This document shows positions 19,649 to 34,937 of a stretch of 64,000 nucleotides of DNA, in pieces (the first letter of the stretch is position 1; each line of letters opens with the position of its first letter). The notes beneath the pieces are model-generated. The model did no database searches, was not told where the DNA came from, and worked only from the letters and a program-made list of their open reading frames with translations. The position numbers were made by a program, and so were the translations under genes. The DNA comes from Agreia sp. PsM10. Its GTDB lineage: Bacteria > Actinomycetota > Actinomycetes > Actinomycetales > Microbacteriaceae. The DNA lies in contig NZ_JARUXC010000003.1 in the NCBI RefSeq assembly GCF_030433855.1, positions 1 through 64,000 of the forward strand, given 5' to 3'.

Positions 19649-19722
19649 CGGGCTGTGGCGCAGCTTGGTAGCGCACTTGACTGGGGGTCAAGGGGTCGCA
19701 GGTTCAAATCCTGTCAGCCCGA
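19649..19722 (+). tRNA. tRNA-Pro (anticodon GGG)
   Basis: A complete cloverleaf. The acceptor stem is CGGGCTG (19649–19655) with CAGCCCG (19715–19721). The anticodon stem is CTTGA/TCAAG with loop CTGGGGG, giving anticodon GGG. The T-arm is GCAGGTTCAAATCCTGT. Discriminator A; CCA is not encoded. Its 3' 32 bases recur at 34906–34937, so this is the integration target of the island downstream. Confidence 0.96.
19689..19720 (+). repeat. attachment-site repeat, tRNA side (attL)
   Basis: 32 bases covering the 3' anticodon stem, T-arm and most of the acceptor stem of tRNA-Pro. They are identical to 34906–34937. Similarity continues for about 12 more bases past both copies (GACAGATTAGCCCC versus AACAGATAAGCCCC). 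Confidence 0.85.
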
Positions 19723-19728
19723 CAGATT

Positions 19729-19763
19729 AGCCCCGAATTTCTGCGGAAGTTCGGGGCTTTTGC
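19729..19763 (+). terminator. tRNA-Pro terminator
   Basis: A perfect 9-bp stem AGCCCCGAA (19729–19737) and TTCGGGGCT (19750–19758) followed by TTTGCTTT, directly after the tRNA. Confidence 0.85.
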
Positions 19764-20283
19764 TTTGCCCTGATGATGGTGAAATCGGCGAAAACGGCGT
19801 TGGTGACGCGCTATGGGCAAATGGAGCGTGTCGTCGCCGAACGTTTCCAGGTGAATGCGGGACGGTTCCGACGATTCTTGGCGACGGTTCGGTACAGGTC
19901 GAGCACAAGTCGGTTGGCTCGAAAGCGCACGGCAATGTCCGGGAGTCAGCCGGGCTCCATTTCGTGTGTTTGGCCGGATGGTTCTGTCGGATTTATTGCG
20001 AACGGGTAATGAGACGAACTTCCCAGAAACCACTCGCGGACCTGATCTTGAAAGCTCGATCTGGGTTGGTGCAACGGTCCGCTTTAGGGTCCTTCTACGG
20101 GTTTTGGATACGGACGGGTCTTGCCGGAAAGCAGACGGGCAATCATCAGCGCTGATATGCGTTGGCTGGGTTGCAGGATCATCTACCTCGCCGGTCCCGC
20201 ATGGTTCGCCGGACAAGACGCGGGCGAGTTTTCCGTACGATTCGACCCCGAACTGGCAGCTTGACCGGGAGAATGACCGGTCT
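19764..20283. other. 520-bp stretch with no supported gene
   Basis: Only short frames lacking protein-like composition or ribosome sites are present on either strand. Nothing resembling the island's expected integrase can be read here, although this is the usual place for one. Confidence 0.6.
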
Positions 20284-20556
20284 TCAGCGACGTCCGAGAC
20301 TTTTTCGCCGGTTAATGAGCCTGACCAGTTTTTTCAGTTCGGCGGGGTGGGCGGATATTCCCTGGGTCAGGGAGAACCAGGCGTGCAGGATGTGCTTCTC
20401 CATCCTGGTGAGCTTGGGCGTCTCGATGATCACGGCACCGAGGTCGGCGGCGTTCTCGTCGACGCTCCAGTTCCCGGCCTCGAGCTCGAGGAGACTCGCG
20501 CATCCGTCGCATCTGATGAAGCGCTCGAGTTTGAAATGATCAAACCCACCGCTCAC
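20284..20556 (-). CDS. hypothetical protein, 90 aa
   Basis: A soluble, natural-looking small protein with mixed composition. It contains IRCDGCASLLELEAGNW, which carries a lone CxxC pair, and a helical C-terminus MEKHILHAWFSLTQG...ELKKLVRLINRRKSL. The CxxC could bind metal, but no second pair is present. It stands alone between two gene-free stretches near the island edge. No family is recognised, and an annotated start at 20556 is the only sensible one. Confidence 0.55.
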   Translation of the reverse strand: MSGGFDHFKLERFIRCDGCASLLELEAGNWSVDENAADLGAVIIETPKLTRMEKHILHAWFSLTQGISAHPAELKKLVRLINRRKSLGRR

Positions 20557-20803
20557 GCGGCCTAAAAAACCAAACCCCGAGAGTCAACTAGACCGACAGC
20601 AGTCCCTCCCCACGCTATATAACCTTCTGATTGCGTTGTCGATGACGCTGGACAAAGCAGTCGTGATGATTCGTCATTCCCAAACGGATCAAGACCGTTA
20701 AGTCGGCTTTGACGCCCAGCGCCGACGTGGCGTCCCGGAATTGTTGGGCTAATCGCTCACGCGGCGGTCGCCCTGATCGACACTGCCAAACCCGTAGGGG
20801 GAC

Positions 20804-32543: not shown

Positions 32544-33203
32544 TTTGTTCTCCCACCCATCCGAGGCCGTATCGGAGTATGCGCTTTGCGACCGGGTCGA
32601 AGGAGGTATGTGATCCGGCCGCAAGAGGCAGAGAGACACGCAGCGAGTCCCTCTCCTCAAGGGAGCGAACAAAAACGGATGTATTACGCCGCTTTATGGA
32701 TACTTTAGGAATTCGCCGATTTGGGGGCCAATTCCGACGATGGACCCGTGCTTGGTGGGCACGATTCATCACTCCTGGCGAATGTCCCGTCCCGGTGTCC
32801 GCAGAATTGCCGGGTGGCGCCAGATCCCGGCAACTCACCTTTGGTGACGACAACGCGATGTAGAGCCGGTCGCTTAGATGCCGTGTGGTCGTTAGTCCAG
32901 CCACCTTTCGGAGATCTCTCGAGAAGGAATGCCCGGCGCAGGAATGCGCCGAGGCGGGATGTAAGTTCGACGCATGGGGCCACTCGCCCGAGGACTGAAG
33001 GAATAACTAGTCCGGCTCAGAGGACTGGGGACTCCGATGGTGCGAAAGTGCCCCGGGATTCCGGGTCTCGATGAGATGTGCGAACGACCCATTTAGGCAG
33101 CTATGCGTGTCTGCCTGAAGCGCTAACGATCGAGCTAATCACGCTTTTCTAAGCTCATCGCCGCCTTCCTCAGGAGCGGACCCAGTCCGCTCGGGCGCAC
33201 TCC
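32544..33203. other. 660-bp stretch with no supported gene
   Basis: Short overlapping frames exist on both strands but none has a ribosome site, a recognisable motif or consistent composition. Confidence 0.55.
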
Positions 33204-33234
33204 TTGACAAATTAGATGTCCTCTGGGCTAGAGT
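33204..33234 (+). promoter_or_regulatory. sigma-70-like promoter of the HAD gene
   Basis: A consensus TTGACA at 33204–33209 and TAGAGT at 33229–33234 (19-bp spacer) lie about 27 bp before the GTG start, with AAGGTGG as ribosome site. Confidence 0.55.
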
Positions 33235-33260
33235 GTTGGCTAAGTTTCAAGGTGGTTTTG

Positions 33261-33929
33261 GTGTCAAGACATGATCATAAAAGTGCGCGGCTTGTGGTGT
33301 ATGACCTTGATGGGGTAGTAACAAAGAGGGACACTTTCGCTGCACTCCTGACCACAAGGTTGCGTGCCTCACCGTTGCGGCTGCTTCGAGCTGCACCTTG
33401 GCTGGTAGTTTGGGCGATGAGACGCGATCCCGAGAGGCGAGCGGCGGCGGCGCGGCGTATCGCGGTGATCGGCTTGGCCACGATGCGTGAAGCCGACTAT
33501 GCCGAACTGGCGTCCCGGCTCGGCGACCGTATCGGAGCAGATTCCGCCTGTTTGCGCCTCGATGTGGTGGAGCGGATGCGGGAACAGAAGCGGGACGGGG
33601 CGTGTGTCGTCGTCGCGACCGCAACGGAAGTTCGGCTTGCTGAGGCGCTGCTGCGGAGAGCGGGTGTTCCTTTCGACCTGCTCTCTGCCTCCATACTCGC
33701 CGAGACCCCCGAAGGTATGCATCTCGTCGATCATCGTGTGGGCCAGCGGAAGGCTGAGGCGTTGTGTGAGGCCGGGGTGCGGCTGTCCGAGGCGGAGTTC
33801 ATCACCGACTCGGCCACCGACCTGCCGACCGCTCGCCTTTCCGGACACGTGACCCTAGTCGGTGCGGGAGGGCGCACCCGGGCCAGCTTCGCCCGCGAGG
33901 GCATCCGTTTTGAAGCTTTCGGCGAGTGA
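33261..33929 (+). CDS. HAD-IB family phosphatase (SerB-like)
   Basis: 222 aa from GTG 33261. Motif I VVYDLDGVVTKRDTF, a helical cap (about 35–85), motif II VVVATATEVRLAEA, and the motif III/IV region VGQRKAEALCEAG...FITDSATDLPTARLSG. This is the phosphoserine phosphatase-like HAD-IB layout, but the substrate is undetermined. It is the last clear gene of the island. Confidence 0.82.
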   Translation: MSRHDHKSARLVVYDLDGVVTKRDTFAALLTTRLRASPLRLLRAAPWLVVWAMRRDPERRAAAARRIAVIGLATMREADYAELASRLGDRIGADSACLRLDVVERMREQKRDGACVVVATATEVRLAEALLRRAGVPFDLLSASILAETPEGMHLVDHRVGQRKAEALCEAGVRLSEAEFITDSATDLPTARLSGHVTLVGAGGRTRASFAREGIRFEAFGE

Positions 33930-34905
33930 GCCAGGGGCGCACACCCCGATGGTTTACCCGGATCGCCCACACATTCGTCTGCTGGCTCAGCGGCGAACTT
34001 GGTCTAGTGAAGGGCAGTCGACGCGCCTCTTGGCCGGTTTCGACCCTCTTTATGAGTGTCGTTCTCTCGACCTGGAGGGTTGGGAGGGCCAGGAACTGGG
34101 TTGGCTTCCAAAACGCGTGCGGACTCAGCAATCGTGAGCATCGGCCATCACGGCTATAGTGGCCGGGCCGACGATGTGGCTAGATATGGTGGAGCAGATG
34201 AAGGCTGGCGTGGCGTCGTCGGGTGCGTCGAGGCGCGTGATATCGAGCGCGGCCACCACAACGTAGTAGCGATGGCGACCGTGTCTTTCGGGGCGCGCAG
34301 CTCCCACGTGTTGATGGACGCCAGCATCATTTCGGAACTGCCGAGCACCGTCGGGCAGCGAGAGAGTACCCGCATCCCCAGCGCCCTCCGCCAGCTCGGT
34401 TTTGGTTGTAGGGATGTCCGCGACGACATACTGCCAGAAGCCGGGCGCAGTAGATCGCGAACATCCACCGCACAAACCTTCCCGACGAACGACTCGTGCC
34501 ATCAACTGAGTCCGTCGGGAGAATCAGGCATGTTGTCCTCTCCGGAGCGAGTTCGAGAAGATTCCGGACAGTCACCGCGTAGATGAAGAAGCGACGCGGG
34601 TTGGGGGGCAGCTGCTCATAGCTGAGCCCATCGGGCATGGTGGATCTGTTGCGGCCCGGATGCGGCCACGGCGCGGACGACCCTTCATAAGGGAGTCGGA
34701 GATGCTCCAGTTGTCCGCTCGTGACGCGGTCGTGACGCGCCATCAGCGAGCAAGCATCCAAAATCAGCCGGAAAATGTCCCGGATCTTGCGAAGTGACCG
34801 GTCACCTAATGTCGCAACCAAACCTGCCTACATGCCTGCCATTCCGCGGATCTGCGCCCGTTTCCAACCTCGGTTATTCTGGGGACCTCACCAGTGACCA
34901 TGGAC
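33930..34905. other. 976-bp stretch with no supported gene at the island's end
   Basis: Several frames of 60–180 codons overlap on both strands (the longest 34327–34821 minus), but none shows conserved motifs, codon bias or ribosome sites. This would be a natural place for an integrase; none can be recognised, even in fragments. Confidence 0.5.
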
Positions 34906-34937
34906 CAAGGGGTCGCAGGTTCAAATCCTGTCAGCCC
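34906..34937 (+). repeat. attachment-site repeat, distal copy (attR)
   Basis: An exact 32-base duplicate of tRNA-Pro positions 19689–19720. The rest of the tRNA is absent here, so it is not a functional tRNA gene. Confidence 0.85.

Follow-up and report, generated by a model that had tools for sequence, protein, structure and literature searches.

In the genome of Agreia sp. PsM10 (Microbacteriaceae), the tRNA-Pro(GGG) gene is followed by a 15.2-kb region bracketed by two copies of the 3' part of this tRNA, an arrangement of the kind made by tyrosine integrases, and no integrase can be read inside it. How did such a region come to lie there, and what became of the enzyme that would have placed it? 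These questions were addressed in a window of 64,000 nucleotides (the whole stretch of DNA analyzed, part of contig 42, C42, of a 4.01-Mb assembly) and in related genomes. The region is probably an island that entered tRNA-Pro(GGG) by means of a tyrosine integrase and later lost its recombination module. A sequence-only reading of the window had already proposed such a tRNA island, and had offered decay of the integrase past recognition, its loss by recombination, or mobilization by another element as explanations for its absence.

Boundaries of the island and the empty site

The 32-base stretch from the 3' part of tRNA-Pro(GGG) was confirmed to recur exactly 15,217 bp downstream, as that reading had reported, and it stops three bases short of the end of the gene as drawn. 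The locus is made up of the following features:

19649–19723, + strand: tRNA-Pro(GGG), putatively the restored target gene, with its 3' part inside attL (ARAGORN)
19689–19720, + strand: attL, the tRNA-side copy of the exact 32-base repeat (repeat comparison)
19721–19763, + strand: left arm, a terminator-like hairpin (read by eye) similar to the arm behind tRNA-Pro in A. bicolorata VKM Ac-1804 (G007)
19764–20803: left end with few genes; an intact integrase lies at the corresponding place in 21 of the 23 relatives that have one, and no remnant exceeded shuffled DNA
34906–34937, + strand: attR, the distal copy of the repeat, presumably the displaced old tRNA end (repeat comparison)
34938–34998, + strand: native chromosomal right arm, which runs on into the empty site of Agreia sp. 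Leaf283 (G002)
34999–36572: block with a TetR gene (35076–35624, − strand) and an SDR gene (35680–36501, + strand), outside the island and a second difference from Agreia sp. Leaf283 (Pfam, alignment)

This tRNA was the sole one detected by ARAGORN, in a scan confined to the window. The repeat did not appear at many unrelated sites: with up to three mismatches, the two copies are the only ones in the whole assembly, and the 30-base core is present once in each of seven other genus genomes (up to two mismatches). The GC content is 0.600 in the island, 0.683 in the left flank and 0.685 in the right flank, and the coding fraction of the island is nominally 0.86, a value from rough picking of open reading frames (ORFs) with doubtful ones included.

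The main check suggested by the sequence-only reading, an empty site in a relative, gave a positive result in Agreia sp. Leaf283, where the two flanks are joined. Window positions 16133–19761 and 36585–47159 align, both at 92.7%, to the neighboring stretches 5750–9385 and 9424–20000 of its locus L036. The right arm (34906–34998) aligns there too and continues into the flank, which is prolonged by positions 34938–34998, behind the distal repeat, more than by the sequence behind the tRNA. This continuity with the distal side is the geometry expected if the copy carried by an element restores the tRNA and the old end is moved to the far side. Because of the repeat geometry and this empty site, a tyrosine integrase would have inserted a mobile element at the 3' end of tRNA-Pro(GGG), the element's own copy of the tRNA end and its terminator restoring the gene and the old end being shifted 15.2 kb rightward.

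The whole region was found in no congener when its DNA was searched in eight genus genomes, its own included (37 first-look candidates scored per genome), nor was it seen in place in any of them; the contig of A. bicolorata ends 2.2 kb behind tRNA-Pro, so the locus is only partly visible there. All the matches listed outside the window were short, and consisted of ends of the insertion sequence (IS), att arms, other places resembling a tRNA, homologues of TetR-SDR at other loci and weak, dispersed matches.

The 1.57-kb TetR-SDR block (34999–36572), which lies between attR and the common flank, is missing at the Leaf283 locus and is either a separate gain in the window genome or a loss in Leaf283. 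Blocks about 70% similar to it were observed elsewhere in Leaf283 and in A. pratensis VKM Ac-2510 (G001).

Behind tRNA-Pro, A. pratensis has 7.6 kb in common with G006, 7.2 kb with Agreia sp. VKM Ac-1783 (G004) and 6.9 kb with Agreia sp. Leaf210 (G003), at 81.9–84.4%. No second repeat was found behind tRNA-Pro in these four congeners, the best resemblance being 18 of 30 bases. Their stretches are therefore not islands of the kind in the window, and the idea that the place is an island hotspot in these genomes was dropped.

A partial duplication of the tRNA, or a scar left by a deletion, would also leave a repeat with no site-specific insertion. The similar terminators on both arms are in keeping with this, as are the other gene blocks that the four congeners have here, since the locus evidently changes by ordinary gain or loss too. 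Against it, the flanks are joined in Leaf283, the GC content differs, and a repeat made of the tRNA 3' part is also what bounds the 32 intervals with a whole or partial integrase at this tRNA end. This origin was judged very improbable.

Search for a recombinase

That no integrase is readable in the island was borne out by every search made. PF00589 marked three genes in the whole genome, at 8865–9374 of the window, C64:218658 and C42:301884, and none within 19.7–34.9 kb; the first two are taken here to be XerD- and XerC-like. A local integrase profile of 37 rows (two integrases entered twice) gave nothing in the island at E < 1, although it marked 32 of 45 comparable intervals (see below). 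The island ends, which the sequence-only reading had singled out for integrase remnants, were searched by tblastn with 29 integrase rows and yielded nothing better than shuffled DNA: of the 60 shuffles made for each end, 40 reached the best score at the left and 40 at the right, and for the whole island 2 of 10 did so. An earlier tblastn run without shuffles had given only noise among the matches listed. Serine recombinases (PF00239) were likewise absent from the island, all matches in this genome being on other contigs. Among 30 such places in 11 genomes, none fell by coordinate in the integrase-less intervals of ten genomes (G094 aside; the interval concerned in G244 bears an integrase).

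In the integrase tree, the protein encoded at C42:301884 has a long branch and falls outside the clade of forward-oriented integrases described below; its joining to one reverse lineage has support of 85/76, which is not firm, and the tree carries a long-branch warning. No tRNA was found in the 20 kb around it. A role as helper for the island, and with it mobilization by another element, is possible but not obvious.

tRNA-Pro intervals across the family

Of 398 family genomes sampled, 324 contain the 30-base tRNA end with at most one mismatch. From 61 multi-copy genomes (60 chosen by eye from the copy table, plus G009), same-strand pairs up to about 30 kb apart were taken, which gave 45 intervals from 38 genomes, counting the window. 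Same-strand pairs of G136 and G243 and one 1.7-kb pair of G025 were omitted, together with all wider pairs (G202, G392, G374, G113, G343, G122, G118, G381, G214) and copies that do not share both contig and strand. No complete tRNA was detected at the first copy in G375, G347 and G094.

A frame of at least 370 amino acids with a profile match, which is all that "intact" means here, was present in 23 intervals; this number may be raised by G244, G178, G411, G329 and G206, for which a nearby integrase was known before fetching. The integrase is broken or short in nine intervals, and 13 have none. Of the 23 intact genes, 21 start at a distance of 33–672 bp from the tRNA-side repeat and the other two at 4,666 and 9,241 bp; the island in the window has no integrase at the position typical of those 21. 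The forward integrases form one well-supported clade, except for the long-branched one of G129, near the Xer rows. The reverse integrases fall on several deep branches, although a single origin is also compatible with the tree. A left edge of the exact repeat at −4 to −1 was seen in 11 of the 18 intervals with a forward first integrase match, against 1 of the 14 in which that match is reverse. The edge at index −2 in the window would thus favor a forward-oriented integrase over a reverse one.

Repeats of the islands without an integrase resemble those of the islands with one, which argues against the idea that the island in the window encodes a recombinase of an unrecognized kind. Several of its ORFs have no Pfam match, as this idea would require. 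A recombinase common to the integrase-less intervals was sought by comparing ORFs chosen from 11 of the 13 (all but the two of G094), and the sole family shared was a transposase (G077, G098); the comparison was incomplete, since the island's match to a broken piece of nucleotidyltransferase in G073 escaped it. Such an enzyme is considered highly unlikely.

Ten genomes were also searched for integrases beyond the last repeat, on its right-hand side, over about 12 kb in general, 29 kb in the window and 3 kb in G094. The only match, a short fragment in G265, lies 4 kb further on, and nothing was found within 29 kb in the window.

Loss of the integrase or a cassette without one

Among the three explanations offered by the sequence-only reading, integrase loss fits best, because nine of the 45 intervals hold a broken or short integrase and 13 hold none. 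The recombination module, kept by most relatives beside the tRNA-side repeat, would have been removed by deletion or by complete decay; decay past recognition and clean deletion are indistinguishable here. What remains would be a stranded island with both att sites, the IS, some metabolic-type genes and a nucleotidyltransferase/helix-turn-helix (HTH) pair, whose movement would probably require an integrase of suitable specificity to be supplied.

Several points weigh against this reading. No piece of the lost integrase was detected, and the loss is deduced from the relatives; no DNA match was found between the island and the other tRNA-Pro islands fetched. The positions of the repeat edge partly reflect chance matches and mutation, with −10 in 2 of 18 forward cases, and by eye the left arm is unlike the type behind most forward integrases and like the terminators of the genus. 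Furthermore, Leaf283 lacks the TetR-SDR block too, so its locus need not equal the exact state before insertion, and different gene blocks occupy this place in four further congeners.

Alternatively, the island may never have had an integrase and may be a passive cassette, moved whenever a tRNA-Pro integrase, whether resident or newly arrived, recombines its two att sites. The 13 intervals without an integrase, eight of them compact (3.2–10.4 kb), could be read in this way, and some of them hold sets of anti-phage genes. In two genomes an integrase-less interval (the first in G077, the second in G094) stands immediately before an integrase-bearing one, as accretion would yield, and the genome of the window itself has the C42:301884 integrase, whose kinship is unsettled and whose link to a reverse lineage is not firm. 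However, the variously broken integrases between the same repeats (9 of 45) are directly explained by loss; a helping neighbor is usually absent, since beyond the last repeat, on the right, eight of nine other genomes yielded no integrase and G265 the short fragment; and no repeated cassette was found among the 11 integrase-less islands compared. A passive origin was therefore regarded as rather unlikely.

A broader version of the same thought is that tRNA-Pro(GGG) might serve the Microbacteriaceae as a shared port, through which integrase-free cassettes bounded by att sites, often with anti-phage genes, would be exchanged by whichever divergent tRNA-Pro integrase is present. This would be comparable to integron cassettes relying on one integrase, and the island in the window would be one such cassette set. 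It is put forward as a speculative proposal, with little probability attached to it.

Relation to known systems

An island that was stranded by loss of its integrase most likely works, by analogy, like a cis-mobilizable element (CIME), a known kind of element that keeps attL and attR and whose integration genes are gone, according to the part of the source drawn on here (PMC5704250). The island likewise keeps attL and attR at the 3' end of a tRNA gene, as judged from the 32-base repeat and the Leaf283 empty site, and integration and transfer genes were not found: integrases are absent by PF00589, PF00239, the local profile and tblastn, and no relaxase or transfer domain was detected in 17 island ORFs (Pfam, E ≤ 0.001, without a dedicated relaxase library). 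It has no integrase of its own, as an autonomous integrative element or prophage would. Descent from an integrative and conjugative or an integrative and mobilizable element is part of the CIME concept; relatives at this tRNA carry integrases, and no parent element was found. Mobilization in cis after accretion with a related element also belongs to that concept; no integrase was found within 29 kb to the right of this island.

In Dehalococcoides, 15 islands without integration modules are described at ssrA in the portion of the report consulted (PMC3146451). Both cases involve one RNA gene at which some islands lack a recombinase and others have one; as far as that portion goes, the target there is the tmRNA gene ssrA and the enzymes are serine recombinases, in contrast to tRNA-Pro and tyrosine integrases here. 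The defense hotspots of E. coli, 18 of which are in tRNA loci in the section of the paper used (PMC10121019), share with these intervals a tRNA locus, anti-phage systems and an often unclear mobility. By the same partial account, many hotspot islands keep integrase or recombinase genes, and the island in the window is not a clear defense island.

Stranded integrase-less islands are thus already known, and related bacteria carry others at this tRNA. In the literature searched, no paper was found on Microbacteriaceae tRNA-Pro genomic islands, integrase-free defense hotspots or Agreia genomic islands. Here a tRNA island left without its integrase is documented together with its empty site. The main interest lies in the survey, with its graded series of intact, broken and absent integrases at one tRNA; novelty is limited. 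The series makes it testable whether integrase-less islands, some with anti-phage genes, are dead or move on borrowed integrases.

Gene content of the island

The following genes were assigned in the island:

20804–21316, − strand: MarR-family regulator (Pfam)
21458–21955, − strand: PNPOx_N domain protein (Pfam)
21844–23406, − strand: MFS transporter (Pfam)
23464–24816, − strand: aldo/keto reductase, domain at residues 141–442, start probably too early (Pfam)
25725–26696, − strand: nucleotidyltransferase-like protein, a probable identity taken from relatives
26693–27490, − strand: HTH protein, overlapping the nucleotidyltransferase-like gene by 4 bases (Pfam)
28470–29840, − strand: DUF7507 protein with what we take to be an LAxTG-like tail, a motif seen by eye (Pfam, ORF)
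30077–30538, − strand: glyoxalase-like protein (Pfam)
31021–32019, − strand: IS with 21-nt inverted ends
33216–33929, + strand: HAD-like hydrolase (Pfam)

The DDE transposase ORF of the IS (30999–31943) extends slightly beyond its left end. The 0.42 kb that ends there (30591–31014) matches another contig of the same genome (G000:C75:267362–267787) at 73%.

The nucleotidyltransferase and HTH genes may form a toxin-antitoxin-like pair, AbiE-like at best. Among 17 rows of nucleotidyltransferase relatives, nine match NTP_transf_8 and four AbiEii (E ≤ 0.1), and the protein of the window itself matches no family at this threshold. A locus-based search gave no relative with this gene, whereas direct genome search found relatives in 25 of 398 family genomes (its own included), at one place inside the integrase-less island of G073. 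Four matches, three to repeat proteins, came from a profile search against solved structures and were judged irrelevant; NCBIfam gave two weak, chance-like ones. PADLOC, run on seven window proteins, matched one of them, over its HTH part.

Anti-phage genes in other integrase-less intervals

Additionally, 20 large ORFs from nine of the 12 other integrase-less intervals were analyzed with PADLOC (a 772-aa ORF of G077 was left out), and matches were obtained in six of the nine (E ≤ 1e-5):

G024, second interval: LmuA, LmuB, LmuC
G203 (9.0-kb integrase-less island; genes at L098 3678–8190): SIR2, HerA, PRTase
G073: GajA, Avs2
G328: LmuB-like
G077: partial HEC-06 match
G024, first interval: weak partial match

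At the same threshold, nothing was found in G265, G347 or the single G098 protein scanned. These genes are a pattern and not an enrichment, since integrase-less intervals alone were scanned. The two intervals of G024 lie in tandem behind tRNA-Pro (L046 5284–15668). The large gene closest behind tRNA-Pro in A. bicolorata is a GajA gene.

Other differences near the locus

Just upstream of tRNA-Pro, about 30 bases of the window (19548–19581) correspond in A. bicolorata to about 1.5 kb with a 470-aa ORF (L042 2374–3854). At 15981–16133, Leaf283, VKM Ac-1783 and A. bicolorata are longer by about 1.3–1.4 kb, by a deletion in the window genome or by insertions in the others. Finally, positions 55674–56089 (416 bp) match L032 811–1224, near the tRNA-Pro of another genus (G018), at 84%.

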